A stretch of 42,353 bases of DNA from Paracoccaceae bacterium (GTDB lineage Bacteria > Pseudomonadota > Alphaproteobacteria > Rhodobacterales > Rhodobacteraceae), in NCBI GenBank assembly GCA_027489355.1, contig JAIXZY010000069.1, forward strand, positions 1 through 42,353. Reading direction: 5' to 3'. The number at the start of each line of letters is the position of its first letter. The stretch's first letter is position 1. A program made the position numbers and the translations under genes. The notes under the pieces were generated by a model. That model saw only the letters and a program-made list of their open reading frames with translations, had not been told where the DNA came from and ran no database searches. Of this stretch, positions 3,509-38,258 are shown in pieces.

Positions 3509-3858
3509 TGACCGGCCCCCTGCTTCTCCGCCTCGCGCCGGGCGCGATTGCGCACGCCCAGCAGCAGGAAGGGCAACACCTCCCACGTCAGGGCGCCGAT
3601 GAAGAAGGCGACCGTGCTGGTGTCGCGCAGGTGCACGAACGGGATCACCAGCGTCAGGTTCGGCGCGATCACCACGGCCACGATCACGCCTGTGACGGCG
3701 GCGGCGATGACGTTGGCCAGCGCCCGGATCAGATCCGCGCGCCGCACCGACTGCCCCGTCATGCACAGGGTCACCAGGGTGAACACCCCATAAACCACGG
3801 CCCCCGCAAGCGCCGCCGCCGCAATGCGCAGGCGGTCGGGATCAATGAACTGCCACAT
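3505..3858 (-). CDS. Membrane protein, holin candidate
   Basis: A 117-aa protein with about three to four hydrophobic segments (around residues 10-33, 44-65, 66-78 and 84-101) and a basic C-terminal tail (RNRARREAEKQG). Its start overlaps the tail-fibre stop by one base (TGATG), so it is the first gene after the structural block. With the overlapping smaller membrane protein downstream it could form a holin/antiholin pair that releases the signal-less endolysin. The call is from topology and position. Confidence 0.6.
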   Translation of the reverse strand: MWQFIDPDRLRIAAAALAGAVVYGVFTLVTLCMTGQSVRRADLIRALANVIAAAVTGVIVAVVIAPNLTLVIPFVHLRDTSTVAFFIGALTWEVLPFLLLGVRNRARREAEKQGAGQ

Positions 3859-10590: not shown

Positions 10591-13311
10591 TCAGCCGCCC
10601 TGGTGCGCGACGGCCATCTGCTGGGCGCGGGGCATCTCCCGCAGCGCCATCCGCGCCCCGGCCTGCGCCGCAGACTCGTGCGTGGCTTCCAGCATGGCCG
10701 CCAGCTGGCGGTCCGGCACATATCCCGGCGGCACTTCCAACCGTGAGATCACCGTCATCTCCACCTTGCCGCCGCCGGCGCGACCGCCCGGCCCGGCCAG
10801 CAGCCGCCGGGTCCGTTCGGCGTCGATCACCTGCGATCCGCGCGGCAGATTGACCAGCTCGGGCCCCCGCTCGCCGACCAGGCTGGGCCCGCCGGCCCAC
10901 CAGTCCGTCCCGTTGGCGTTGCGGCCGAACAGGAAGCCGAACGCCGTCGACAGCCAGTTCCCGCCGCCCGACCCGCCGCCGCCCGCGTTCAGGTCGAACA
11001 GGCCGTCGATCATCTTCTCCAGGAACCGGTCCGCCGCCCGGTCCAGCTGGTTCGACAGGGCGTCGCTCAGCCCGCTGTTGCGGATGTCGGACACCAGCCC
11101 CTGCACCCACTCCCGGGCCGCGCCCTGCGCCTCGGCGTCGGCCGCCTCCGCCACCTGCCTGGCAGCCATGTTCCGCCCCTCGCCGAAGTCCAGGCCAAGC
11201 ATCTCCTCGATCCGGCGGGCCAGCTCTTCGGTCTCGCGGTTTATCTCCAGCGCCCGGGCCAGCGGCTCATTGCCCCGCAGCCGCGCCAGATCGACCTCCC
11301 GGTCAGTCTGGGATTCGATCCAGGCCCGACGCTGCGACGCTTCACGCGCCTCCGTCGCCTCGCCCAGCTGGGATGCAGCCACGGCCTCGGCGGTCCCGAC
11401 GTCCACGCCAAGCCGGCGCAGCTCCAGAATCCGCTCTTCCAGATCCAGCCGGTCCCGCAGGCCCTGCGCCAGGGCATGGTTGCCCTCGGCCTCATAGACC
11501 AGCAGCTGCTGGCGATCCTCTTGGGCGGCCAGCTCGCGCGCCTTGATCTCGGCGCGGCCCATATCGATGATCTTCATCTCGGCCGCGACCATCTTTCCGG
11601 CCAGCATCGCCGACAGGTCGTCGTCAACCAGCTCGCGGATCCGGCGTCGGACCTCTTCCTCGCGCTCCAGTTCGCGGACACGGTCGAGATCCTGATAGGC
11701 TTGCGCCTGCTCCAGCTGACGGCCCGCCCGGCGATCCTCGTCACGACGATCCCGGGCCAGGGCGTCGCGGCGCGCACGCTCAGCCTCGGCCTCGGCCGAG
11801 TCGCCCGAGCCACCGCGCGAACCGCCGCGACCGGCGCGGGCCGCACGATCAGCCGCGTCCTGAGCCGCCTGGTTCTCGGCCGCAGCGGCGCTCTGCTGGC
11901 CCGCAACCATCTGTTCGATGCCCAGACGCGTGCCCAGGACCCACCGGTCGCTTTCGCGATCGGCCATCCAGTTTTCATTGGCCCCGGTGCGGCGCCCGTT
12001 CGCGATCTGCCGGTCAATGCCCGCCAGCCGCTCTTCAGGAGTGGTGTAGAGGGCGCGGCCCAGCTGGTCCCAATAGTTCGACACCGCCCGCGAGGCCGCA
12101 TCCCAGGCACTCTCGACCACGCCGATCCGGTCGGCCTGCCCGGCCAGGGCATCCGTCAGCTCTCGCGACAGGACTGTCTGCGCGCCCGTCAAGTCGCCCT
12201 GCTTCTGCAGCGACTCAATATGCTCGATCGTCTTCTGGTCCAGCAGGCCCAGCTCGCGGGTCCAGTCACGCGCGGCCTTGGCCGGGTCCAGCATCCGCTT
12301 GGCCAGATCGGACGTCGCCTGCTTGGCGTCGACGCCATAGGTCGCGGCATAGTCCTTCCCGACCCGGATCAGCTCCGCGATCACCGCCGTGCCGATACGT
12401 CCGGTCTGGACATAGGCCGAGGCCTGCTCCCGCGCCGAGCGCACCGAAACCTCGGCCTGATCCGCCGTGGCCAGAGCCAGGGTCTCCAGTTCGACCGCCG
12501 TCACACCGCTGACGCGACCGAGGCCGCCCACGGCACGTTCCAGCCCGTTCGACTGACCCTCGGCATCATTCCACGCCGCCGCCAGAACCCCGGCAGCGGC
12601 GGCCGTCAGGCCCAGCGCGCCGCCGACCAGCAACAGCGAGGCGCGGGCCTTGATCCCGCTGGTGGCCAGAGCGTCCAGGATCTGCGGACCCTGCTGGATC
12701 GCGATCATGGCCGGGTTCATACCCATAGCCGCCGTCACCAGCACGTCGGCGCCCTGCCGCGTCAGGTTCAGCCGGCTGGCCACCTGGTTTCGCGACAGGC
12801 CCGAGGTGTTTCGCTGCAGGGCTGCCGTCTCGGCGTCCAGCGCCGCCTTCGACCGCGCCTTGAGAGCAATGGCCTCAGCCTCGCTGATCTTGGCGCGACC
12901 CAGCAGCTGGTCGTATTCGCGCAGTTCATCATTGTAGCGCGCCTGGGCGGCGCCCAGCGGGTCGATCTGCGCGCGCAGCAGGGCCGCGCGTCGCTCGGCC
13001 CCATCGTCGGCCGCGAACAGCACGCGGGCGGCCATGTCCGCCCGACCCGCGCCGCCGCCGGTCACGCCCGTGATCTGATCGATGCGGGCCTGCGTCGCGG
13101 ACGGGGCCCGTGCGGCCAGCGCCGCCTGGGTCGAGACCTCCTTCAGCGCCTGCACCTGACCGCGCGCGGCCGTCGTGGCGGCCTCCGTCGCGGCCTTCGT
13201 CTTCGTGGCCGCGGCCACACCGGCCGCCTCGACCTCGCGGAAGGTGCGAACGACCTCGACCCCGCCCTCAGGCTGCAGCCGGATGCTGACGTCGCCGCGG
13301 GCCTTGGCCAT
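10591..13311 (-). CDS. Tail length tape measure protein
   Basis: A 906-aa protein with long alpha-helical, alanine- and charge-rich regions. The hydrophobic segment IKARASLLLVGGALGLTAAAAGVLAAA lies at about 220-250. The conserved block VTAAMGMNPAMIAIQQGPQILDAL at about 193-215 is characteristic of phage tape measure proteins. Coiled-coil stretches fill about 480-680, and the end is PPGYVPDRQLAAMLEATHES. Protein length sets tail length; at roughly 1.5 angstroms per residue this implies a tail near 130-140 nm, supporting a siphovirus. It lies downstream of the frameshifted tail chaperone gene, as expected, with the DUF6441 gene between. Confidence 0.9.
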   Translation of the reverse strand: MAKARGDVSIRLQPEGGVEVVRTFREVEAAGVAAATKTKAATEAATTAARGQVQALKEVSTQAALAARAPSATQARIDQITGVTGGGAGRADMAARVLFAADDGAERRAALLRAQIDPLGAAQARYNDELREYDQLLGRAKISEAEAIALKARSKAALDAETAALQRNTSGLSRNQVASRLNLTRQGADVLVTAAMGMNPAMIAIQQGPQILDALATSGIKARASLLLVGGALGLTAAAAGVLAAAWNDAEGQSNGLERAVGGLGRVSGVTAVELETLALATADQAEVSVRSAREQASAYVQTGRIGTAVIAELIRVGKDYAATYGVDAKQATSDLAKRMLDPAKAARDWTRELGLLDQKTIEHIESLQKQGDLTGAQTVLSRELTDALAGQADRIGVVESAWDAASRAVSNYWDQLGRALYTTPEERLAGIDRQIANGRRTGANENWMADRESDRWVLGTRLGIEQMVAGQQSAAAAENQAAQDAADRAARAGRGGSRGGSGDSAEAEAERARRDALARDRRDEDRRAGRQLEQAQAYQDLDRVRELEREEEVRRRIRELVDDDLSAMLAGKMVAAEMKIIDMGRAEIKARELAAQEDRQQLLVYEAEGNHALAQGLRDRLDLEERILELRRLGVDVGTAEAVAASQLGEATEAREASQRRAWIESQTDREVDLARLRGNEPLARALEINRETEELARRIEEMLGLDFGEGRNMAARQVAEAADAEAQGAAREWVQGLVSDIRNSGLSDALSNQLDRAADRFLEKMIDGLFDLNAGGGGSGGGNWLSTAFGFLFGRNANGTDWWAGGPSLVGERGPELVNLPRGSQVIDAERTRRLLAGPGGRAGGGKVEMTVISRLEVPPGYVPDRQLAAMLEATHESAAQAGARMALREMPRAQQMAVAHQGG

Positions 13312-21161: not shown

Positions 21162-21359
21162 TCAGCCGCCCTCGAAAACGGCGAGGGTGACCGACGACCG
21201 GCCAGCATCGCGACGACGCTCGAACGCCGCGATGGCCTTCAGGATCTCCGACGTCGACCGATAGGTCACCCGGTCGCCGTCGGATTCGACCGTCAGCTCA
21301 CCCGAGGCCATGGCGGCCTCCAGCGCGGCAATCTCAACGGCGTAATCCGGCGCAGGCAT
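21162..21359 (-). CDS. gpW-like head-tail connector
   Basis: A 65-aa protein: MPAPDYAVEIAALEAAMASGELTVESDGD, then RVTYRSTSEILKAIAAFERR. The length and the pattern (two helices around a beta hairpin with VTYRS) match phage lambda gpW-type proteins, which fill the portal channel during head completion. Its start overlaps the terminase stop (TGATG), and the portal gene follows after one base. Confidence 0.8.
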   Translation of the reverse strand: MPAPDYAVEIAALEAAMASGELTVESDGDRVTYRSTSEILKAIAAFERRRDAGRSSVTLAVFEGG

Positions 21360-23506
21360 CAGAGATAATCCCCCTCAACGTCCACGAACCCCGGCGGGCG
21401 AATGGCCTTCGTTTCTGTGTCGGCCGCCGGCGTCACCGGCGACGTCGGCGGGGCGATCGAGGTCACGCCCGCCAGAAGGTCGCCCTGTGCGGGATCCCTG
21501 GCCGCGTACCGCTCCGCCCTCAGGCGCGCCCAATCGGCCTCCGACAGGGTGTCCAGCATCAGCTTTTCGGCCGCCGCGACGTTGTAGACCCGGCAGTCCA
21601 GATAGTGGTTCTGGCGACCCGGCAGAGGCTGCCACTTCTTCTTCGGATAGCCGTGCTCGACCACGCTCACGATGGTCTCGGCGGTGATCATCTCGAACCA
21701 TTCGTCCGGGGTGTCCCGACTGAAATGGCACAGGCCGCGCGGCCGGTGATCCGCCGCGACGCCCGTCTTCGCCTCTTCGGCCGCCAGCTTCAGCGTCGAC
21801 CTCAGGAAGCCGTAGAACATGGCCTTCACGCCATCGACGCCGACTAGATAGGCCTTGTCCTCGGCCTTCTTGGACGCAAAGCCCGTCCGGCTGCCTTGGC
21901 GTTCGTACTTCAGGTTCTCGCCGCGCCCGAGGATCGGCCGCTGCCATCCCGAGCGGCCGAAGACCACCATGCGGTTCGGCCGCATCCGGGCGTATTCCTC
22001 GGCGGCCTTGGTGTGATAGCCGCCGTCGACGACCTCCCAGTCCAGCGGCAGGGCCTTGCCGCCCGGAAAGGTCGTCGGCTGACGCGACAACCGGTCCAGA
22101 TCGACCCAGGCCCCCTCGCCCGGCACGTCCGTGTTGCCCGGCAGAAAGGCCTGGTGCAGCGACCAGCTCTCCGCATCCGGACCCCAGCCAACCAGCTCGG
22201 TATAGATCCCGTCGCCCTGCACGTCGCTGGCCCGGGTCAGCACGATCGGTCCGACCGGCATCTGGCCCGTGCCCCAGTCCTGCGAACGAAGGGCCTTCAG
22301 TCTTTCATGGTCCGGCGTCGCGCCGCGCAACTCGAACGCCGCCCCGCGGGTCAGCATCGTCCAGCCCATCAGCTTGAACTGGTCGCCGCGGCAGGCGACG
22401 AACTCGACCGCCATGTCGCCCCAGGTCTGGAAGCTGGTCAGCATGCCGTCGATGTCGAACGCGCGCTTGACGCTGCGGGGCATCCGGGCCCGCAACCCCT
22501 GAAACTCTTCCTCCGTCAGCACCAGCGGCAGGGTCTCGCCGTCGATCGATTCCGACAGCCAGCAGTCCGGCCGGATCATCGACAGCTTCTGCCAGTGATG
22601 CGTCACCGTCCCGCAGCAGCGCGGGACCAGATAGGCCTCTTCCGGGCGGCCGTCGGGCCACTGGATGTCGCGCTCGCCGTCCGCCTGCGGGTCCCAGACG
22701 ATCCGGAACCGCGAGGCGCAGTGCGGGCAGGCGTACCAGGCGAACCGGCGATCCACGCCGTCGGCGTTGAAGGCCGCGTCGATCTTGCTCGCGCCCTTCA
22801 CCGTCGGCGTCGAGATCTTGGCCCGCTTCGACAGGCCGCGCCGGCGGTAGACCTTCAGGCGCTGATCGACCATCGCCTCGGGCGAGCCCTGGCCGTCCAG
22901 GTTGTCCGGGAACTGGTCCAGGTCGTCTTCGACCGCATAGCGCATCGTGCGCGACCGCAGCCCCGCCGCCGAGTTCGCCCCCGCCAGCGCCACATAGGAC
23001 GACGACCGGGCGAACCGCAGCTTGTTCTTCGTCGAACCGTCCCCGGTCGCCTCGCCCAGCTGGCGGATCGTGCCGCCGCGCGCCGGGTCCAGCCGGGGCG
23101 TGGACTCGATCATCGGCCACAGCTTCTCCGCCGACCACTCCAGCCCCGCCTTCAGCGTGGCCTGGACGAACAGCATCGGCCCGGGGGCCAGGTCGCTGAT
23201 GTAGCCGATCCAGTTCTCCACCGCCGCCGTGCCGCCCGACTGGGCGCACTTCCTCAGGATGACTTCCTCGCAGGGGTCCTGCGGGGACAGCGCGTCCATG
23301 ATCTCGACCAGATAGGGCGCGGTCTCATGTCGCCACCGGCCCGGGATCGGCGCGTCGTCGCTGAAGCGCCGGTACTTCGCCGCCCACTCCGAAACCAGCA
23401 TCCGCTCGGCGGGCCGGAACCCGTCGGCGAAGGCCTTGTCCAGCCGGCCCGCGTTCGCCTCCAGGATCGGCCGCGTCGTACCGAAGCCCTCCAGATCGAA
23501 CGCCAT
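21359..23506 (-). CDS. terL: Terminase large subunit (gpA type)
   Basis: A 715-aa packaging motor. The ATPase half has the gpA-type Walker A variant (RKCAQSGGT, about residues 85-93) and an acidic Walker B (RYAVEDDLDQF, near 187-197). A CPHC...CC zinc-like cluster follows (YACPHCASRF, VPRCCGTV, about 248-300). The C-terminal nuclease half includes VVDGGYHTKAAEEYARM with its acidic residue. It cuts concatemeric DNA and drives it into the prohead. Homology to gpA suggests cos-type packaging, but no cos site was identified. TGATG overlaps join it to both neighbours. Confidence 0.92.
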   Translation of the reverse strand: MAFDLEGFGTTRPILEANAGRLDKAFADGFRPAERMLVSEWAAKYRRFSDDAPIPGRWRHETAPYLVEIMDALSPQDPCEEVILRKCAQSGGTAAVENWIGYISDLAPGPMLFVQATLKAGLEWSAEKLWPMIESTPRLDPARGGTIRQLGEATGDGSTKNKLRFARSSSYVALAGANSAAGLRSRTMRYAVEDDLDQFPDNLDGQGSPEAMVDQRLKVYRRRGLSKRAKISTPTVKGASKIDAAFNADGVDRRFAWYACPHCASRFRIVWDPQADGERDIQWPDGRPEEAYLVPRCCGTVTHHWQKLSMIRPDCWLSESIDGETLPLVLTEEEFQGLRARMPRSVKRAFDIDGMLTSFQTWGDMAVEFVACRGDQFKLMGWTMLTRGAAFELRGATPDHERLKALRSQDWGTGQMPVGPIVLTRASDVQGDGIYTELVGWGPDAESWSLHQAFLPGNTDVPGEGAWVDLDRLSRQPTTFPGGKALPLDWEVVDGGYHTKAAEEYARMRPNRMVVFGRSGWQRPILGRGENLKYERQGSRTGFASKKAEDKAYLVGVDGVKAMFYGFLRSTLKLAAEEAKTGVAADHRPRGLCHFSRDTPDEWFEMITAETIVSVVEHGYPKKKWQPLPGRQNHYLDCRVYNVAAAEKLMLDTLSEADWARLRAERYAARDPAQGDLLAGVTSIAPPTSPVTPAADTETKAIRPPGFVDVEGDYL

Positions 23507-24138
23507 CAGCCGGCCTCCCGCTCTTCCGCCTCCTCTTCCGCCAGGGCCGAGGCCACCTCGGCCTGGACCGCGGCGTCGTCCTCGGCGTCGTCCGCCTCGA
23601 CCTCGCCGACCGCGCCCGACGCGATCTGCGCCGCCAGATCCGCGAAGGCCCTCTCAATCTCGTCTTCCAGCTGGGCCACGACCGCCCGTGGATCCTTGCA
23701 GGCCGCCAGCCATTCGGCCTGCGACCGCACCACGGACAGCATCCGCTCGCGCGCCACCCGTCCGAACTCCGTCGCCCGCCGGGCGTATTCCTCCAGCGGC
23801 ACCAGGTCCCCGGCCTTGCGGGCGTTGTCCAGCTGCAGCTTCTCGGTCTGCTGACGGATCAGGTCCGTCCGCACGTCCGCCAGGCTCCCGCCCGCCGCCG
23901 CCGGGCCAGCCGGAGCCGCCAGCGGCAAGTCCGCCTGCGGCTGACTGTCCGCCGCCCGAGGCCGGCCCCGTGCCGGGTCCAGCTTTGCGTTCAGCCGCGC
24001 CTCAGTCCTGGCCACGTCGACCAACAGCTTCGCCGGGTTCGCCGGATCCTCGGCCATGACCAGCAGGTCAGCCTTGGCCCAGTTGGAAACCGCCGACGCG
24101 CCAACGCCGCGGCGCTTCGCAAAGGCCCCCTTGGTCAT
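23506..24138 (-). CDS. Terminase small subunit
   Basis: A 210-aa protein from ATG 24138 (MTKGAFAKRRGVGASAVSNW). It opens with a helix-turn-helix like Nu1-type small terminases, followed by a Pro/Ala-rich linker. A central helical domain (DVRTDLIRQQTEKLQLDNARKAGDLVPLEEYARRATEFGRVARERML) and a very acidic C terminus (EVEADDAEDDAAVQAEV) complete it. It binds packaging-site DNA and recruits the large subunit. The frame stays open to TTG 24186, and GTG starts at 24180 and 24162 are alternatives; none has a clear ribosome site. Stop and terminase large start overlap by one base. Confidence 0.85.
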   Translation of the reverse strand: MTKGAFAKRRGVGASAVSNWAKADLLVMAEDPANPAKLLVDVARTEARLNAKLDPARGRPRAADSQPQADLPLAAPAGPAAAGGSLADVRTDLIRQQTEKLQLDNARKAGDLVPLEEYARRATEFGRVARERMLSVVRSQAEWLAACKDPRAVVAQLEDEIERAFADLAAQIASGAVGEVEADDAEDDAAVQAEVASALAEEEAEEREAG

Positions 24139-24277
24139 CAGGACAACGGGCGACTTCACGGAGTTCAAAATCCTATTCACGGCCAAAGCGCTGCGATTTC
24201 GCGCTCTGCCCCACCGTATACAGGCCGGCCCCCTGGAAAGGACCCGCGGCAGTGTCTAGGCCATTGATCGGGCACGA

Positions 24278-24345: not shown

Positions 24346-25047
24346 TTACGTGCCCCTGATTCGCAAGGCCCCCGTTTCGGCGAGGCTGACCCGCACCTTG
24401 GCCAAGGCGGCCTTCAGCGCCGCGAGGCGCATACGCCGGGCGCCGCCCGAGAGTTCCCGCGGCCCGATCGGGCGACCTTCCACGGCCACGGCGCGCAGGA
24501 CTTCGACGCCGAGAGGGCTGGCCACGGCCCGTTCGGCCGTCGTCACCCGCACCAGCAGGGCCGCCCGACGCAGGCAACCGACGACCCGCGCCGTCGAGGA
24601 CGACGCGCCGCCGCGCACCTCGCCCAGCTGGCCCAGTTGCGACCCCAACCCTGACAGGACGGCCGCCTCGACCAGCGACCGCAGCTGCAGCGCCGTGTTC
24701 GCCTCCGTCTCCGTCAGCGCACCCGACCGCACCAGGGACAACAGGCCGTCCCGGCTCTTGACCCGCTTGGCCCCGGCGTCGTTCCAGTCTTCCAGAGCCC
24801 GGGCGTCGCCCTGGGCCTGGGCCAGAAAGGTCGCCTCACGATCGCGGCTCAGCTCATCGCGCACCTCGGCGGCGATGCGCCCGGCTTCGCCACGTTCGGC
24901 GGGGTCTGCCCTCACGGCCAGACGGGCGGCATAGGCGAGGCGGCGGCGCTGACCCATGTCGGCGCCCAGCATCTCGGCATGCAGGTTCAGGTACACGGCC
25001 AGCGGCTCCCCTTCTTCGCGGTCTCGCATGGTCACGGCGCGGGTCAT
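24346..25047 (-). CDS. Conserved prophage protein at the early/late boundary, possible late regulator
   Basis: This 233-aa protein is helical and basic. Blocks such as VKSRDGLLSLVRSGALTETEANTALQLRSLVEAA, GLGSQLGQLGEVRGG and the C-terminal VLRAVAVEGRPIGPRELSGGARRMRLAALKAALAKV form a pattern I associate with prophage proteins in alphaproteobacteria that lie just upstream of terminase. The C terminus looks like a helix-turn-helix. It is the last gene before the early terminator, the slot of late activators or antiterminators; function is inferred. Three GTTCC boxes of the symmetric array lie directly upstream of its start. Confidence 0.6.
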   Translation of the reverse strand: MTRAVTMRDREEGEPLAVYLNLHAEMLGADMGQRRRLAYAARLAVRADPAERGEAGRIAAEVRDELSRDREATFLAQAQGDARALEDWNDAGAKRVKSRDGLLSLVRSGALTETEANTALQLRSLVEAAVLSGLGSQLGQLGEVRGGASSSTARVVGCLRRAALLVRVTTAERAVASPLGVEVLRAVAVEGRPIGPRELSGGARRMRLAALKAALAKVRVSLAETGALRIRGT

Positions 25048-25262
25048 CGGGCCGGTCTCCCGACCGTTCCGGCGGCGTTCCGGCCTCCGTTCCAGTCTAT
25101 CTTTCTGAATAGTCTATAGAAATAGAGAGGGCGGAACGGTCGGAACGCCTGGAACGCACCTGTGCCCCTCGCCTGCCTGCGCCTGCGCCCACTTGCGGGA
25201 GGATGTTCTGGCGTTCCGACCGTTCCGACCGTTCCGGGCGGCGGTTTCTTCAATGCGATCAT
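25044..25262 (-). CDS. Possible small protein encoded across the iteron array
   Basis: This is a 72-aa open frame whose ATG overlaps the helicase stop (ATGA at 25259-25262). Its stop overlaps the next gene start (ATGA at 25044-25047). Both junctions match the coupling seen through the rest of the operon, which favours translation. Against it, most of the sequence is simply the translation of the repeated GTTCC/GGAAC boxes (GTVGTVGT, FRPFRP), with basic patches and no recognisable domain. It could be a real small basic protein or a bridging frame with no function. Confidence 0.35.
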   Translation of the reverse strand: MIALKKPPPGTVGTVGTPEHPPASGRRRRQARGTGAFQAFRPFRPLYFYRLFRKIDWNGGRNAAGTVGRPAR

Positions 25263-25301
25263 GGGATTGCCTCGGAACGGTCGCCGGAACGCGGCCGGAA
25301 C
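25066..25301. repeat. Mirror-symmetric array of twelve GTTCC/GGAAC boxes (candidate origin)
   Basis: GTTCC occurs at 25066, 25077, 25089, 25213, 25222 and 25231. GGAAC occurs at 25133, 25142, 25151, 25274, 25286 and 25297. Spacings are 11,12 / 9,9 / 9,9 / 12,11 and all pairs mirror around about 25184. Outer triplets share an inverted repeat of about 30 bases; inner triplets share a 9-bp iteron GTTCCGACC. An AT-rich patch (25094-25130) containing TCTATAGA lies between two triplets. It lies across the 3' end of the helicase gene and the region beyond. It looks like a replication origin or a complex operator. Confidence 0.8.
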
Positions 25302-27085
25302 GGTTTCTCAAGCCAGGGGGTAAGGGGGATGGCGATCGACCGCGACTTCCGGCCAATGCCGAACGTCAGCGGCGGCGCAGCCCAGGTCGCGAAGTCGGGC
25401 CCGGCGTCGTCCAGATAGCCCAGCGCGCGACGGTGATCCTTCCATCGGGTCCGGCCGAAGATGCGCTCCACCCCAGGGTGCTGATTGGCCACCAGCAGCC
25501 AAGGCCCGGGCCGACCGTCGGGCGACAGGTCGAAATCGATCCGCAGCCCATGCTCCTTCAGATCGCCGCGATGGTCCTTCGCCGACATGGGATCGCCGCC
25601 CAGCGTGGCTTCCACCAGCTCGCCGATCGACGCTCGCCGCCCACCGTGGACCAGCCCCGAGTCCCAGCCCAGCAGGTGCGCCAGGGCCGCCTGCCCGGCA
25701 TTCACCTCGCCGTCCGCCTCAGCCCGCTCGGCCAGCAACGCGCCCCAGATCCGCGCCTCTTCCGCCGCCTGGTCCTCATCCAGCGCCAGGTCGCTCAGGA
25801 TCAGACGCCGCCCGGCCGCGAGGGCCGCGATCAGATCGGCGTTGCGGGGCGAAGCGCCCCCGTCAACCAGGGCCGCCTTGATGGCCAGCACGTCCTCGCG
25901 ATACCGCCCGGCCAGCCCCAGCGCCCGCCCCAGCAGGCCCGGCGCCGCCCCTCTCGCGCGGGTCGCCGCCGTCGCCAGATCGGTGTCCGACAACCGGGGG
26001 CGGGGGGGTGGCCCATCGGCCGCCCCCCCGCCGTCGTCGCCGGTCCTCAACCTCAGCATCCGCACCTCGGCCACCCGCGTGGCCAAGGCCTGATCCAGCT
26101 TCGGCGGGTCGGCGGCGGCCAGCAGCACGGCCCCGACGGCCGTCTGGGCCACGTCATGCTGCTTTCTGCTGGCCCCCTCGCCGGTCGACATCAGGCGCAG
26201 CGTGTTCAGCACCAGCTCGACCGCGCCGGGCAGACCGTCCCCGGTCGCGCCCTCGGCTTCGTCGACCACCACGGGCCGCGCCATGCCGCTGATCTCCTTT
26301 CGGAAACCCGCGTCGGTGAAGCTGTTCATCACCTCGCCGGCCAAGGCCGACAGCAGGCCATGCACGAACGCGAGGAAGGTCGTCTTTCCCGACCCCGGCC
26401 GGGCATGCAGCAACACATGCACCCGGAACGGCGCCACCCCGCCCAGCAGGGCCAGCCCCACCCAGCCGCAGATCACGTCCGCCCCGGTCAGGCCGTCCTC
26501 ACCGACCGCCTCGAAACTCCAGGCGTCCATGTGATCGCGCAGCCAGCGCCCGACCTCCGGCCCGCACGCCCGCCCCGGCTCCGGCGCCGCCGGCATCAGC
26601 CGGTACAGCGGCCCGCTCCGGGCCTTCAGCGCCTCTGTGACCGACTTGACCACCACCTGGCCGTCGGGGCCGCGGAACTCGACCTCATTGCCCCGGTGCA
26701 GCACGGTCACGCCCGGCCCGCCGGGCCAGACGCCCAGATTGCGCATCACGCGGCCCGCGTCCCACTTGCCCGCATGCCGGCACTGGCGGTTAAACCAGAT
26801 GGTGGCCAGGTCCCGCTGGAACTTGTCGTCGCTGTCGCGCCAATAGGTCAGGAAGCTCTGCCCCGCCTCGCAAGCGAAGATGTCGGTGCGCAGCATCGTG
26901 CCGATCTTGCTGGCCAGTTCGATCCGGATCTCGCCCTCGGGCATGGCGAAGATCACCCGCGGCCCGTCGAAGCCGAGGAACACGACCGGACAGTCGTCCA
27001 GCGGCGGATTCGGAAACGCGCCCAGCCGGCGCTCCGTGTCCGGATCGGCCTCGCTCAGAACGTCCAGGGGCTCTTCCACACTCAC
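25259..27085 (-). CDS. Phage replication ATPase/helicase (DUF927-like)
   Basis: A 608-aa protein with an N-terminal DUF927-like region (about 30-190) and a P-loop ATPase. Walker A is ARPGSGKTT (about 228-236) and Walker B PVVVDEAEG (about 271-279), with an Arg-rich sensor region after LLAAADPPKLDQALATRVAEVRM. Helicases of this type act with a cognate primase at phage or plasmid origins. GTG 27085 overlaps the primase stop (GTGA). Its last codons contain three GGAAC boxes of the symmetric array, so gene and candidate origin overlap, as in lambda O. Confidence 0.8.
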   Translation of the reverse strand: MSVEEPLDVLSEADPDTERRLGAFPNPPLDDCPVVFLGFDGPRVIFAMPEGEIRIELASKIGTMLRTDIFACEAGQSFLTYWRDSDDKFQRDLATIWFNRQCRHAGKWDAGRVMRNLGVWPGGPGVTVLHRGNEVEFRGPDGQVVVKSVTEALKARSGPLYRLMPAAPEPGRACGPEVGRWLRDHMDAWSFEAVGEDGLTGADVICGWVGLALLGGVAPFRVHVLLHARPGSGKTTFLAFVHGLLSALAGEVMNSFTDAGFRKEISGMARPVVVDEAEGATGDGLPGAVELVLNTLRLMSTGEGASRKQHDVAQTAVGAVLLAAADPPKLDQALATRVAEVRMLRLRTGDDGGGAADGPPPRPRLSDTDLATAATRARGAAPGLLGRALGLAGRYREDVLAIKAALVDGGASPRNADLIAALAAGRRLILSDLALDEDQAAEEARIWGALLAERAEADGEVNAGQAALAHLLGWDSGLVHGGRRASIGELVEATLGGDPMSAKDHRGDLKEHGLRIDFDLSPDGRPGPWLLVANQHPGVERIFGRTRWKDHRRALGYLDDAGPDFATWAAPPLTFGIGRKSRSIAIPLTPWLEKPFRPRSGDRSEAIP

Positions 27086-28320
27086 GCCGCGACCCTGCCT
27101 TCCGGACCCTTACGGGCCCTCAGTTCATCGTTGAAATCACGCCCCGGCGCGGGCGCCACGGCGGTCGCGGACTGGGCCCCGGCCGCCTTCCACGCCTGCG
27201 CCGACAACCGCGCGCACAGCCGCGCCCGCGCCTCGGCGTCCAGCGTCACCTCGCACGGCCGCCGCCGCCGGCTGCGCGCCTTCAGGGTCAAGGGGCTCAT
27301 GTCCCGATCGACCCCGATCATCACCCGGGGCACGCCCGGCCAGACGAAGGCGGGCTTCTCGGGATCCGGCTGCGGCGCCCAGGCGTCGATCCGCCGGTCG
27401 TCATCCTTCAGAAGCCGCCCCTGCAGCCGGTCCAGGCTCAGCGCCGCCCAGGCGCGGGGCAGGCTGCCGGTCCGCATCAGATGCAGGCTGGCCAGCGACA
27501 GGCTGGACTCGATGCCCTCGGCCCCGATCGCCAGACCGTCGCCCGCATGGCCCTCCAGCGAAGGTCCGATCAGCCAGGCCCCGCCGGGCCGACCGTCCAG
27601 CGACTGCGGCCCCCACATGATCTTCGACGGCGCATGGTCGCTCTCCGCCTTGCCGGATCCGCCGGGAGCCAGATAGGTCGCGTGGATCCCGCCCGGGGCC
27701 ACCGGCCGCCCGTCCGGGCCCGCCACCACGACCAGGGCGATCATGGCTGGCGCAGTCACCCAGCGCCGCGACCCGTCGTCGAACCACCACTTGGCCGCGG
27801 GATGAAATCTCAGGTTCCGCACCGCCGCCGCGATCACCCCGGGCACGATGCACCGCGCCGCCAGATAGGCCTCGACCGCCGTCCCGGCGGCCGGCCGGGC
27901 GGCGCGCCAGATCTCCGCCGCGATCCGCGCCGTCGTCTCCGATCGCCCGCCCTCGGCCCGTGCCCGCACCGGCGGCCGCGACGGCTTCGGCAGTTCGGTC
28001 ATCCCGGCCAGCCGCCGCGCGGCCTCCAGGATCGACCCGCCCCTCAGCGCCCGCTCCAGATCGACGACGTCGCCGCCCTCGCCGCATTTGTAGCAATGGA
28101 AACGCCCGTCCCGGACCTCGAACGGCTCCGACCTCAGGGCCTTCTTCTTGCGCTTCCTGACCCCGCCCTCGGCCGGCTTCGCCACGGCCCGACATCCCGG
28201 CAGGGGACACGCCCCCCGCCCTCGCGTCAGCTTCGTCGCGCGCCCGGCCAGGGCCTCGATCGACACCTGCCGACACGCCGCATCGACCGCCGCCTTCACC
28301 GTCGCCAGGGCGTCACTCAC
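27082..28320 (-). CDS. DNA primase with CHC2-type zinc finger and Toprim-like domain
   Basis: A 412-aa protein. GTG 28320 is chosen because AGGAGG lies upstream; the longer frame to 28374 runs through a palindrome and the preceding gene. The zinc motif has C38, C43, C76 and C79 (ACPLPGC...FHCYKCGEGGDVVDL). A middle domain (AYLAARCI, LRFHPAAKWW) and a Toprim-like domain follow (AIGAEGIESSLSLASL, then VMIGVDRDMSP), giving the acidic metal-binding residues. It should make RNA primers for phage replication. It is coupled by GTGA overlaps to the small gene upstream and the ATPase downstream. Confidence 0.85.
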   Translation of the reverse strand: MSDALATVKAAVDAACRQVSIEALAGRATKLTRGRGACPLPGCRAVAKPAEGGVRKRKKKALRSEPFEVRDGRFHCYKCGEGGDVVDLERALRGGSILEAARRLAGMTELPKPSRPPVRARAEGGRSETTARIAAEIWRAARPAAGTAVEAYLAARCIVPGVIAAAVRNLRFHPAAKWWFDDGSRRWVTAPAMIALVVVAGPDGRPVAPGGIHATYLAPGGSGKAESDHAPSKIMWGPQSLDGRPGGAWLIGPSLEGHAGDGLAIGAEGIESSLSLASLHLMRTGSLPRAWAALSLDRLQGRLLKDDDRRIDAWAPQPDPEKPAFVWPGVPRVMIGVDRDMSPLTLKARSRRRRPCEVTLDAEARARLCARLSAQAWKAAGAQSATAVAPAPGRDFNDELRARKGPEGRVAA

Positions 28321-28541
28321 GCGCGGCCCTCCTGACGAAGGCCCTTCGCTGGCGGCGTCTTGAAGTCGACGCATCCGGCAGATTTGAGATAGGTCGCCGC
28401 AAGATCGTCGGCGGTCACATCGAAACGACCCCGGCGATGCAGCACAGTCAGCATGCTGCCGATCGCGTGGTTACGCGACCAGGCCTTCAGGCCGGTGTCG
28501 TGGCCATCCAGATAGATGATGCTGGCCTTGGGCAGCTTCAA
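28317..28541 (-). CDS. Small protein between methyltransferase and primase
   Basis: A 74-aa protein (KLPKASIIYLDGHDTGLKAWSRNH...). Start TTG 28541 is inferred from a GGGGAGG site just upstream and a TTGA overlap with the methyltransferase stop. The stop overlaps the primase GTG. It has a central helix-rich region (SMLTVLHRRGRFDVTADDLAATYLKSAG) that could be part of a helix-turn-helix, but no family was recognised. Its last codons contain an exact copy of the dispersed palindrome (28336-28348), so the extreme C terminus (KGLRQEGRA) may be unimportant. Confidence 0.55.
   Translation of the reverse strand: MKLPKASIIYLDGHDTGLKAWSRNHAIGSMLTVLHRRGRFDVTADDLAATYLKSAGCVDFKTPPAKGLRQEGRA
28336..28348. 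repeat. Dispersed palindrome CGAAGGSCCTTCG, copy 4
   Basis: Exact CGAAGG-C-CCTTCG, located 16 bases upstream of the primase GTG start and inside the last codons of the preceding small gene. Confidence 0.8.
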
Positions 28542-33049: not shown

Positions 33050-33253
33050 ATGGCCGAACAACGCACCGTCACCCTCGACCTCACCCCGGACGAAGCCTCG
33101 GCCCTGCTGGCCCTGGCGACGAAGGGGCGCGTCTTCCTCGACGTCGACCCCGCCTTCCTGGCCGCCCATGCCCGCCGCCGCGCCGCCCGCGACGCCTTCA
33201 TGCGCCTGCGCATGGCCGCCCGACGCGCCACCGTCACAGGAGTCGCCGCGTGA
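33050..33253 (+). CDS. Small hypothetical protein upstream of the ParB-like gene
   Basis: A 67-aa protein (MAEQRTVTLDLTPDEASALLALATKGRVFLDVDP...), largely helical with a basic second half (AHARRRAARDAFMRLRMAARRA). It overlaps the ParB-like gene by four bases (GTGA), so the two are co-translated. No family recognised. It is not a ParA: there is no P-loop. Confidence 0.6.
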   Translation: MAEQRTVTLDLTPDEASALLALATKGRVFLDVDPAFLAAHARRRAARDAFMRLRMAARRATVTGVAA

Positions 33254-35028
33254 CCGCCCTGAACCTGCTGGCCGTCCAGAACGCCGCCCTCCTTCGCGAA
33301 CTGCAGAAGGAGGGCCCGGACCGGGCCGCAAACGTCTCCGAACTGGCTCGGCGCCTAGATCGCGACGAGTCCAACCTGCGCAAGTCGCTCAAGGCCCTTG
33401 ATGGCGCGCGGCTTGTGTTCGCCGGCACCCTGCGCCTGAGCGGCGACGGCATCGAGCAGCTGGCTGCCATCGACCGCGCCGAAGGCGACGGCGACCGCCG
33501 CCGCTGGCCCATCGACCGCATCCGGCCCAATCCCGCCAACCGCCCGGTCGATCCCGACACCATCCCCGGCATGGCGGACTCTATCGCCGCGCGCGGCCTC
33601 CTCCAGCCCCTGGTCCTTTCGCCGCCCGACGACCGCGGCATCCGCATGCTCTGGGTGGGCGAGCGCCGCTGGCGCGGCCTGCTGATGCTGGCGGATCAGC
33701 ACCGCACCCCGGCTGACCTTATCGACGGCGCGCCGTTTGAGGAAAGGCAGGCCACCGCGGCCGAGGCCCTGGCCATCACCCTCACCGAAAACGTCGAACG
33801 CCAGAACCTGACCCCGCTGGAAGAGGCCTTCCTCTTGCGCGACCTGGCCGACGCCTGGGGCGAGGACGGCAGGCCGCTGACCGCCACCGACCTCGCCGAC
33901 CGACTCGGTCGCGCGCGCCAGCTGCGCCAGATCCAGATCAAGCTGAAGATCGCCCGCGAGGCCACGCCCGAAGCCGTCGACGCCTACCGTCGCGACGGCT
34001 CCTGGGACGCCCTGGTGGCCAGCGTCCAGTCGGCGCGCGCCGAAGCCCCGCCGGCCCCCGCGCGGGTGACCGGCCCCTGGATCCTCGACGGCATCGATTA
34101 TGGCAACGCCACCCGCTACCAGGAGGCACGCTACGCCAAGGGCCTCGACCGCCGGCCGGCCAACGCCGGCGGCGTGGCATCGCGCGCGACGCCGCCGGCC
34201 GACCCCGTCGGCCCGCAACCCGAACCCCTCACCGACGCCCAGCTGCTGGCCCTGGTCGAACTGGCGCATCAGATTTATCAGCAACAGACCGTCGCCCTGC
34301 TGGGCGCCGGCTGGACCGGCAACCCCGACCACGACCTGCGCGCCTTCGGCGCGGCCGTTCATGACTGGTGGCTGGCCGCGGACTTCGCAGACCTGCGCGG
34401 TCTCGGCCTGATTGATCTGGTCCAGCGGCCAGGCGGCGCACCGGCCCTCGCCGTCCTGACGGCCACCGGCATTTCCCGACTGCGCGACGAGGCTGTCCCC
34501 CTGCCGCCCGGCGACGCCGCCACCGCCAGCTGGCAGGTCCGCCTCGGCGGCGGCCTGCGCGGTTTCGACGACATGGCCACGGCCTGGCTCAACGCCCCGT
34601 CGTCATCCGGGCCCCCGAGCCGGGACGCGGTCCCTGCAGAAGAAGGCCCGCCTTGGGACGACGCAGACGCCGAGGCCTTGTCGCTCCCGACTACGGCCGA
34701 GGAAGACGACCGCGACGAATGGGGCCGCACCGACGACGTCGCCGCCGCCGACCTCGCCCTGCTGGACGAAGCGCTCGCCCTGGACACCGAGGCGGACGAC
34801 GAAGACGGCCCGCGCGACCTCGCCGCCCGCCTCGGCTTCGGCGGACCCTTCACCGTCGACGCCGAAGGCGGCCTCTGGTGCTGGGCCCCCGGAGACGAAG
34901 ACGAACGGCGCGAGCTGATCACCGTCGACGTCAACCGCGAGATCCCGACCGAACGCGCCCGCGCCGTCGCCCTCCTGATGGCCTGGGCCCTGAACCGCGC
35001 CCTCGACCACGCTGGGCCCGCGTCATGA
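33250..35028 (+). CDS. ParB-like DNA-binding protein with N-terminal winged helix
   Basis: A 592-aa protein. Residues 1-70 form a winged helix (ANVSELARRLDRDESNLRKSLKALDGARLV). About 85-190 is a ParB/Srx-type domain (RIRPNPANRPVDPDTIPGMADSIAARGLLQPLVL, VGERRWRGLLML, LTENVERQNLTPLEEAFLLRDL). A helix-turn-helix follows (TATDLADRLGRARQLRQIQIKLKIA), and then a long acidic C-terminal half that includes a separate helical domain (LTDAQLLALVELAHQIYQQQ). The order resembles plasmid ParB, but no parA is present. Phage ParB-like proteins may act as transcription regulators or CTP switches. An exact dispersed palindrome follows its stop. Confidence 0.8.
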   Translation: MTALNLLAVQNAALLRELQKEGPDRAANVSELARRLDRDESNLRKSLKALDGARLVFAGTLRLSGDGIEQLAAIDRAEGDGDRRRWPIDRIRPNPANRPVDPDTIPGMADSIAARGLLQPLVLSPPDDRGIRMLWVGERRWRGLLMLADQHRTPADLIDGAPFEERQATAAEALAITLTENVERQNLTPLEEAFLLRDLADAWGEDGRPLTATDLADRLGRARQLRQIQIKLKIAREATPEAVDAYRRDGSWDALVASVQSARAEAPPAPARVTGPWILDGIDYGNATRYQEARYAKGLDRRPANAGGVASRATPPADPVGPQPEPLTDAQLLALVELAHQIYQQQTVALLGAGWTGNPDHDLRAFGAAVHDWWLAADFADLRGLGLIDLVQRPGGAPALAVLTATGISRLRDEAVPLPPGDAATASWQVRLGGGLRGFDDMATAWLNAPSSSGPPSRDAVPAEEGPPWDDADAEALSLPTTAEEDDRDEWGRTDDVAAADLALLDEALALDTEADDEDGPRDLAARLGFGGPFTVDAEGGLWCWAPGDEDERRELITVDVNREIPTERARAVALLMAWALNRALDHAGPAS

Positions 35029-36299: not shown

Positions 36300-37159
36300 C
36301 CCGCACTCCGCAATCTGACGCCCAGGTCGCGCACCGCTTCCGCTTCGCGGCCGACATCCTGGAGAGCATGACCGACGGCATCGACGGCGACCGACTCGGC
36401 GCCCTGGTCCGCTGGGCCCTGCACGGCGAGGCGGCGGCAGACGAAGCCGAGGCGCTGATCCGGATCTTCGAAGCCCCGCACCTTGCCGCGATCGATGAAG
36501 GCGCCTGGTCCGGCGACAGCCGCGCCGAGGCGCTGGCGGACATCGCGCGGGTGACGGCCGCGGCGGACGGCCTTGCTGACGACGCGGCGGCTCGCGTCGT
36601 CCAGTGGTTCTGCGCCGAACGCCGTCGGCAAGTCGACATCGAGGGCTGGAGCCTAGAGCACGACGATCTTTACGACGCCGGCGAAATGGCCCACGCGGCA
36701 GGGTGCTACGCCATCGCCGCCATCCGTCCGGCGAACGATCGCCGTATGGGCCTCGGCTACCCTCCGGACCATTGGCCTTGGGAGGTTCGCTGGTGGAAAC
36801 CAGCCGACCCGTTGACGATGCTGGTGAAGGCAGGCGCCCTCCTGATCGCGGAAGTCGAACGGCTCGAAAGAAGGGGCGAAAGCCGCGCCGAAGCCGAGGC
36901 AGACGTCGCGAGGGTCACGGCCGAGGCGGAAGCCTTGGAGGTGCGCGTCTCCGCGGCGGCGCGCCGGTCGAGAGCGCTCGCGTCACTCCGCGCTCTACAA
37001 GAAGGTGCTGCAATCGCCATGCCCAGCTTTGTGGGCAACGAGGCGGTCTACGACTTCCTGTGCGCCATTCATCGAGAGGCCGTGAAGGGCCAGCTCGCCA
37101 GCGACGACGTCGCCAACGAAGGCACCCTGGGCGCCATGGGAGGTCAGAACCATGGCTGA
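36296..37159 (+). CDS. Conserved phage protein with WPW/WWKP motif
   Basis: A 287-aa protein. The middle block QWFCAERRRQVDIEGWSLEHDDLYDAGEMAHAAGCYAIAAI with PPDHWPWEVRWWKPADPLTMLVKAGALLIAEVERLERR is a conserved phage domain of unknown function that I have seen in other phages. Around it, the repeated helical stretches SRAEALADIARVTAAAD and SRAEAEADVARVTAEAE suggest an internal duplication forming coiled coil. ATG 36296 has GGAGG upstream and overlaps the previous stop. The gene overlaps the next one by eight bases. Confidence 0.65.
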   Translation: MTRTPQSDAQVAHRFRFAADILESMTDGIDGDRLGALVRWALHGEAAADEAEALIRIFEAPHLAAIDEGAWSGDSRAEALADIARVTAAADGLADDAAARVVQWFCAERRRQVDIEGWSLEHDDLYDAGEMAHAAGCYAIAAIRPANDRRMGLGYPPDHWPWEVRWWKPADPLTMLVKAGALLIAEVERLERRGESRAEAEADVARVTAEAEALEVRVSAAARRSRALASLRALQEGAAIAMPSFVGNEAVYDFLCAIHREAVKGQLASDDVANEGTLGAMGGQNHG

Positions 37160-38258
37160 CGCCACCCCCATCGAATGGACCGACGCGACCTGGAACATCG
37201 TCACCGGCTGCAGTGTCGTCTCGCCCGGGTGCACGAACTGCTACGCCATGCGGCTGGCCGGCACGCGCCTTCAGCACCACCCCAGCCGGGCGGGCCTGAC
37301 GACGGCCAGCAAGGCCGGGTCGGTCTCAAGCAGCCCGAAGGGCGATAGGCCAACGAAACATGTCTGGAACGGTCAGGTGCGGTTCAACGCCGAATGGCTG
37401 ACCCAGCCCCTGCGCTGGACCCGCCCGCGCCGCATCTTCGTCGCCGCCCACGGCGACCTGTTCCACGAAGGCGTCACCGACGACTGGCTGGACCAGATCT
37501 TTGCCGTCATGGCCCTGTCGCCCCAGCACACCTTCCAGGTGCTGACCAAGCGGCCCGAGCGGATGCGGGAGTATCTGGCGCCGCTGAACCAGCGGCGCGC
37601 CGACGGCTTGGGTCGATCGGTCATAGCCTTGGGCTATAAAGATCCGCTCGAGTGTTTGCCGTGGCCCCTCCCCAATGTCTGGTTGGGCGTCAGCGTCGAG
37701 GACCAGGCCCGCGCCGACGAACGTATCCCGCCCCTGCTGGCCACCCCCGCCGCCGTCCGCTGGATCTCGGCCGAGCCCCTGCTGGGGCCGGTCGATCTTG
37801 ATGCGATCCCGTCTTCACCCGGGGCCACGACTTACAAGCTGTTCGGCCCCTTGTCGGGCTACTGCCAACGCCACTGGCCACGGACGGACTGCGCGTGCGA
37901 GCGGCAGCAGCCGCGCCTCGACTGGGTCGTCGCCGGCGGCGAGAGCGGCCCCGGCGCCCGCCCCATGCACCCCGACTGGGCCCGCCAGCTGCGCGACCAG
38001 TGCGCCGCCGCCGGCGTGCCGTTCCTGTTCAAACAGTGGGGGGAGTGGGCGCCCGGCGAGAACGCGGGGAGCACGGTCGGCCGGGCCGTCGAGACTGCCG
38101 ACTGGTTCAACGAGGCCTGGGACTTCAAACGCCTGACGGCGGCGACCGCCGCGGCCCAGACGATCGACGAGGAGCCGACGCTCTACCGGGCCGGCAAGAA
38201 GGCCGCCGGCCGCTACCTCGACGGCGTGCTGCACGACGCCTTTCCGGAGGTGCGCTGA
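37152..38258 (+). CDS. DUF5131 (phage Gp37/Gp68) three-Cys protein
   Basis: A 368-aa protein starting [35 protein letters not shown]. C20, C27 and C30 give the three-cysteine motif of the PF07505 family, which resembles radical-SAM iron-sulfur motifs. Further family blocks are [59 protein letters not shown] and [14 protein letters not shown]. The biochemical role is not established; a radical-SAM or nucleotide-modifying activity has been proposed for such proteins. It is directly coupled (TGATG) to a cytosine methyltransferase gene, which suggests a joint role in DNA modification or defence. The usual three-Cys-motif partner protein is not encoded here. Confidence 0.85.
   Translation: [368 protein letters not shown]

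Follow-up and report, generated by a model that had tools for sequence, protein, structure and literature searches.

Twelve mirror-symmetric boxes at the 3' end of a phage helicase gene: a probable replication origin with a satellite-like organization

Introduction

The closest described counterparts of the element reported here are the pri-rep-ori modules of phage satellites and the related cassette helicases. According to PMC6092414, which also mentions the alpha protein of phage P4, the origins of phage-inducible chromosomal islands (PICIs) lie 3' of rep and consist of an AT-rich region with a set of iterons on either side. As reported in PMC7581432, the C-terminal domain of Rep from Staphylococcus aureus pathogenicity islands (SaPIs) recognizes iterons directly 3' of its own gene, and Rep binds these iterons apparently as two hexamers; Cch2 of the staphylococcal cassette chromosome mec (SCCmec), like its isolated C-terminal domain, binds direct repeats of 5 nt that lie downstream of the Cch2 gene. 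Here we describe an array of twelve GTTCC/GGAAC boxes at the 3' end of a helicase-like gene in contig JAIXZY010000069.1 of a Paracoccaceae bacterium; the whole stretch analyzed, 42,353 nucleotides, is called the window.

The window and its relatives resemble the PICI and SaPI modules described in PMC6092414 and PMC7581432 in three respects: a primase and an initiator helicase, split or fused (the initiator role being putative here); short iterons immediately 3' of the helicase or rep gene, or inside its last codons in the fused relatives (type B, below); and iteron sets, here triplets 1 and 2, flanking an AT-rich segment, although the twin half of the window array is not AT-rich. They differ in that the four triplets here are mirrored, so that the unit is doubled, and in that the array overlaps coding sequence, wholly so in type B. 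Twelve mirrored boxes also contrast with the three iterons reported for Cch2 in PMC7581432. The window is not a PICI element: those satellites depend on a helper phage for virion parts, whereas here the carrier itself encodes portal, capsid, terminase, tape measure and tail fiber proteins, along with an integrase. The pri-rep-ori organization is already known; neither the doubled mirrored form nor the change of box word with a helicase residue was found in the open-licence PubMed Central literature searched. Two further systems invite comparison. P4 alpha is a primase-helicase initiator that recognizes a cognate site with short repeats, as proposed here, whereas P4 is a satellite with two separate cis regions. 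Origins of the lambda O type have iterons that overlap the initiator coding sequence, as in our case, but lambda O is not a helicase, and its iterons are longer and do not form four mirrored triplets.

Results

Twelve boxes with twofold symmetry

The array comprises four triplets of a 5-bp box, in the order GTTCC, GGAAC, GTTCC and GGAAC (triplets 1 to 4, Table 1). The twelve boxes, their spacings and their mirror partners around a center at 25184 were exactly as described in the first-pass annotation. Its estimate of about 30 shared inverted bases in the outer triplets agreed with a measured inverted match of 31 bp at 90% between triplets 1 and 4, and the AT-rich patch that it placed between triplets 1 and 2 was likewise found, with 62% AT over 40 bp (28% in the center and 40% in the mirror spacer). 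The whole window holds 87 copies of GGAAC/GTTCC, 12 of them within the 236 bp of the array; the densest 236 bp in each of 100 dinucleotide shuffles of the window held 3 to 5. Querying the window's own genome with the array recovered that locus and the inverted match between its outer arms, and nothing else. The array lies between the helicase-like gene and a gene for a 233-residue protein, with the terminase genes beyond, and triplet 4 overlaps the 3' end of the helicase open reading frame (ORF).

The layout is conserved and the word changes

Arrays of this kind also occur at the 3' ends of other phage helicase genes, where two layouts can be told apart. In type A, helicase and primase are split as in the window; in type B, the two are fused and the array falls within the last ∼100 codons. 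A search with the inner double-triplet pattern matched 32 viral contigs and 21 genome contigs, which by layout were 12 type A, 31 type B and 10 other; among 394 genomes of the window's family, the pattern occurred in two, one being the window's own.

Type A boxes lie near -115, -104, -92, -48, -39 and -30 from the center, with mirror images on the other side. In the 13 arrays tabulated, all 12 expected boxes were present in 11 and 11 boxes in the remaining 2, and the inner triplets began 17 to 24 bp past the helicase stop. Alignment of 12 arrays, partly non-independent (L020 and L032 are near-identical), gave invariant bases in 55 of 60 box columns versus 18 of 172 other columns, so that the comparison of relatives proposed in the first-pass annotation found the box layout preserved and the intervening bases variable. 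A search led by the helicase alignment yielded 15 loci, 12 of which retained GGAAC boxes (L069 ends after six boxes and L076 deviates in some). The other three, L073, L074 and L080, have no GGAAC boxes and carry GTGAC/GGGAC or GGGAC/GGTAC triplets at the corresponding places, with the AT-rich spacer on the same side as in other type A arrays. Relatives that keep the protein and lose the boxes were named in the first-pass annotation as refuting evidence; in these three loci the layout stayed with the helicase and the word did not. The type A relatives L052, L060 and L063 come from genomes assigned to Brevundimonas and Caulobacter, which makes a related alphaproteobacterium the probable host of the window phage. 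With the window helicase as sole query, the genome contigs gave no relative, and tblastn against cultured phages gave two weak matches.

In type B, a fused primase-helicase of ∼975 residues (DUF7146 and Toprim, then a C-terminal ATPase-like part) reads through the entire array. From the best 80 of 271 relatives we removed 7 incomplete loci and 11 duplicates, leaving 62 distinct loci, in 8 of which the box phase was adjusted after inspection. The type B layout retains the inner six boxes, mostly has a further box at about -87/+88, and varies in its outer boxes. Identical inner 5-mers at 9-bp steps in inverted pairs occupied at least 4 of the 6 positions in all 62 loci and at least 5 in 55, and never more than 3 in 186 shuffled regions or 62 upstream coding stretches. 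Nine box words occur among the 62 loci; a tree built from residues 1 to 800 requires a minimum of 25 word changes, and a minimum of 11 changes of the first base. Since words switch while the triplet layout persists in both types, it is the geometry that is conserved. A tblastn search of cultured phages with the type B helicase returned 74 partial matches, none reaching 80% query coverage.

Because the type B array lies in the coding frame, its boxes encode peptide repeats, for example GEPGEPGEP and GSPGSPGSP. The last ∼100 residues of the protein accordingly resemble collagen, with GEP/GSP or GER/RSP units that correspond to the translated boxes.

The first base of the type B box is associated with one helicase residue

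When the array-coded tail was left out, the association of protein columns with the type B word peaked at about residues 841 to 863, a stretch whose sequence suggests the last part of a winged helix. Residue 854 was K or Q in all 31 rows with a G-first word and R or G in all 31 rows with a T-first word, and in all nine independent pairs the residue and box base 1 changed together. Among 617 variable columns, 851 and 854 alone reached 9/9 (851 with a fitted split; the split first tried gave 8/9, with one pair showing no difference), and the maximum for columns 1 to 800 was ∼5. Omission of two stop-containing rows left 60/60 rows and 8/8 pairs for residue 854, against a maximum of 4.6 for columns 1 to 800. 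Columns 867 to 877, which are closer to the array than 854, scored lower.

A base-1 rule was written down before its trial on held-out loci. Thirty-two loci on non-training contigs, less 5 duplicates and 3 incomplete, gave a held-out set of 24; three further new contigs, L169 (protein identical to training row L135) and L276 and L277 (incomplete), were left out. A strict phase rule (gap 2 mod 3, G at two positions), set after a mis-phased first held-out run and independent of the protein residue, placed 19 arrays, and 5 more were placed only with a relaxed phase. The base-1 rule was correct in 12 of 12 applicable rows, although several held-out rows share a C-terminal motif with training clades and so are not fully independent. 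Rows with N or H at 854, residues absent from training, were G-first in 6 of 7 under the strict rule; the seventh, L278, was T-first under that rule and G-first under the relaxed one. L308 (G at 854), which stands outside the 12/12, has TGAGG when phased by eye and fits the rule. In ten GGAAC rows chosen by pattern, a one-sided test, residue 854 was K or Q in 7 and N in 1, with none aligned in 2.

Spacer composition and IHF-like sites

Over the 13 type A arrays the helicase-distal spacer had a mean AT fraction of 0.67, compared with 0.44 for its mirror counterpart and 0.28 for the center; both type B spacers averaged 0.52. An IHF-like element resembling TTTCAATAAGATAG is present in the AT-rich spacer of several relatives. 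Scanning for the IHF consensus, WATCAANNNNTTR, with one mismatch allowed found 76 sites in 50 of the 62 type B arrays, compared with 6.2 expected from shuffles; the sites concentrate near positions -78 to -72 and +72 relative to the center. Six of the 13 type A arrays have such sites, five of these six at +72 to +79. The window spacer gave no match at one mismatch; the window's genome encodes four HU/IHF family proteins. Separately, purines and pyrimidines alternate over a long run within the central 60 bp of type B arrays (mean 25.9, shuffles 6.5), possibly a Z-DNA tract; the run is much shorter in the 13 type A centers (8.9 versus 6.3).

The array as a probable replication origin

We consider it likely, judging from sequence comparisons, that the array is a replication origin bound by the C-terminal domain of the helicase. 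It would be similar to the PICI/SaPI pri-rep-ori unit, except that the unit is doubled here and that its carrier is a complete phage. This is the best-supported reading because the array stays at the helicase gene end, its layout outlives word changes, the type B word varies in step with one helicase residue, and the PICI/SaPI origins described in the literature have a similar layout. An origin bound by the helicase/primase system was one of two functions first suggested for the array; the other, an operator for 24346-25047, is not supported, as detailed below. For the type A helicase model, which is of modest confidence, Foldseek pointed to a possible resemblance to poxvirus D5/E5 and SaPI Rep proteins, and VIA placed SCCmec Cch (5dgk, best) and MCM helicases closest. 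The last hairpin of the model (Table 1) is proposed to be the wing of a winged-helix-like C-terminal domain.

According to this origin model, the helicase C-terminal domain would read the boxes, and two assemblies, probably hexamers, mirrored about 25184 would be loaded facing each other, open the AT-rich spacer and allow replication to start with the phage primase. Twelve boxes with twofold symmetry would suit two hexamers, and steps of 9 and 12 bp would amount to about -51 and +51 degrees on B-DNA, near the 60 degrees between hexamer neighbors. A more specific version, which we regard as possible yet rather doubtful, equates the twelve boxes with twelve protomers: two hexamers would sit head to head with one C-terminal domain per box, the constancy of the layout would reflect the space that a double-hexamer loader occupies on the DNA, and the word would drift with a wing residue that reads base 1, keeping the origins of co-resident phages apart.

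Types A and B are linked by primase (shared DUF7146, one BLAST cluster), by place and by array layout, and we infer that their helicases read the arrays alike, so that type A would work as type B does. A candidate origin, initiator and melting site become recognizable in a sizeable group of mostly uncultured temperate phages, and a complete phage shows an organization that a 2018 paper called peculiar to phage satellites. The natural series of helicases with matching words may be the start of a readable recognition rule, and the fixed geometry would constrain the two-hexamer assembly of a self-loading helicase.

Several results weigh against this origin model. The type A and type B helicases gave no phmmer match at 1e-3 and an hhalign probability of 0.25%; they are not detectably homologous, so the residue 854 association is not transferable to the window protein. 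In type A we saw no separation of box words by residue comparable to that of type B, and a wing K/Q as box reader was rejected because L031 and L071 have Q with GGAAC. Column 854 was picked post hoc and lies close to the array (149 bp from the inner triplet in L082), and inheritance of both as one cassette could inflate the association. Residue 854 was outside the scope of the base-1 rule in 7 of the 19 held-out rows, and a base-3 rule (residue 855), perfect in training, was dropped after 12 right, 6 wrong and 1 undefined held-out calls. Pfam gave no family for the window helicase at E≤0.001, hence no D5_N or Primase_C-term match, and the type A helicase model is weak (predicted local distance difference test score, pLDDT, 62; low TM-scores). 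Distant helicase relatives L007 to L012 (26-39% identity) showed no cluster of at least 5 GGAAC/GTTCC per 240 bp, in a search limited to these words. Lastly, the window array as single-stranded DNA folds far better than shuffles (z -7.7).

Alternative functions

The array could instead be a large operator, at which a repressor or activator bound to the boxes controls the downstream operon (24346-25047 and terminase). Operators commonly carry repeated boxes, the array sits just upstream of 24346-25047 and the late genes, and an initiator could autoregulate too. Against this, neither the 24346-25047 product nor the small terminase has a detectable homologue in the 8 kb around the arrays of L024 and L032 (ORFs of at least 90 residues), the type B array of L044 is followed by a RuvC-like gene, the array of L080 is followed, by eye, by a different gene, and the type B word tracks the upstream helicase. 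Because arrays persist without the 24346-25047 gene or with another gene following, an operator for it is not supported; a search of 24950-25450 for sigma-70-like promoters, other types not being covered, found none. We regard an operator as unlikely.

We give still less credence to a packaging site (cos or pac) that the small subunit of the terminase would recognize. The gene for this subunit starts 0.9 kb past the array, the large subunit is of the gpA kind, and lambda cosB offers a parallel in its repeated R sites. However, arrays occur in L024, L031 and L032 with no detected homologue of the window small terminase, the nearest large-terminase homologue found for four type B loci is 5 kb from the array, and the type B word follows the helicase. 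No window-like large terminase was found at other loci within the 8 kb or less searched, a comparison that unrelated terminases would escape.

Equally improbable is that the inverted arms act as a hairpin or cruciform, in single-stranded DNA or RNA (a single-strand origin or an attenuator). Besides the strong fold of the window array, 10 type A arrays showed more mirror complementarity of spacers within loci than between them (5.0/8 versus 3.97, permutation p 0.002). Swapped non-mirror spacers nevertheless scored 4.6 and same-arm direct repeats 5.9, so the excess is explicable by locus-specific 9-bp units. In type B, mirror pairs scored 3.39 versus 3.47 of 4 for non-mirror pairs, and deviating boxes were compensated in 4 of 56 cases, with 4.8 expected. 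The mirror box pairs of L073 and L074 differ in two of three, and 24800-25600 gave no Rfam match. A centromere-like site for the ParB-like protein that the window encodes can practically be dismissed, since that gene is 8 kb off and the array adjoins the helicase in those relatives whose data include the helicase.

The carrier phage and neighboring genes

By family matches of its proteins, the window has the gene content of a complete temperate phage. Its virion genes encode a tape measure protein, tail fiber, portal, capsid with protease and both terminase subunits; other phage genes encode an S24-type repressor, a ParB-like protein and a large serine integrase. The product of the small gene next to the array has homologues adjoining the array in five other loci (phmmer), and its structure model is of limited quality (pLDDT 70, predicted TM-score 0.46). 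In the right half of the phage lie the genes for the ParB-like protein (33250-35028) and a DUF5131 protein (37152-38258).

Table 1 Coordinates of the array and of neighboring features in the window
Feature	Position	Strand	Basis and remarks
Terminase, small subunit (23506-24186) and large subunit (21359-23506)	21359..24186	-	First begins 0.9 kb beyond array
Small protein, 233 residues, just downstream of array	24346..25047	-	Arrays also occur without this gene
Outer triplet 1	25066..25093	+	GTTCC at 25066, 25077, 25089; spacing 11, 12; conserved among type A relatives
AT-rich spacer between triplets 1 and 2, candidate DNA-unwinding element	25094..25132	.	Base composition
Inner triplet 2	25133..25155	+	GGAAC at 25133, 25142, 25151; spacing 9, 9
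GC-rich center, 57 bp, mirror axis ∼25184	25156..25212	.	Base composition
Inner triplet 3	25213..25235	+	GTTCC at 25213, 25222, 25231; spacing 9, 9
Spacer between triplets 3 and 4, with helicase stop codon 25259-25261	25236..25273	.	
Outer triplet 4	25274..25301	+	GGAAC at 25274, 25286, 25297; spacing 12, 11; within 3' end of helicase ORF
Last beta hairpin of helicase model, residues ∼568-587	25325..25384	-	Model secondary structure
Helicase-like protein, 608 residues, proposed initiator/origin-binding protein	25259..27085	-	phrog_21086; weaker phrog_35358 DNA primase
Primase	27082..28374	-	DUF7146; phrog_510; overlaps helicase start; related primase fused to helicase in type B

Other occurrences of inverted triplets

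One 14-kb viral contig, L028, holds two arrays (3579-3684 and 11516-11621) 7.9 kb apart. L336 (G000:C44:143500-146935), a second helicase of the type B kind in its genome, has an open frame of 1109 residues; past base 2713, after its stop, it shows 9-bp repeats that by eye are GGGGTAGCG-like, with a different box word, and an exact scan gave 3/6. Inverted GGAAC triplets also occur on four contigs of one Chloroflexota metagenome-assembled genome (MAG; L049, L053, L055 and L058). The neighbors of L049, L053 and L055 with Pfam matches are cellular (methyltransferase, antiporter and carboxyl transferase), and these triplets are probably a different thing. Outside both main layouts, inverted GGAAC triplets lie near a D5_N gene in L059 (Duganella) and, in L061 (a Phycisphaerae MAG), near a Prim-Pol gene accompanied by one for a phage capsid protein.
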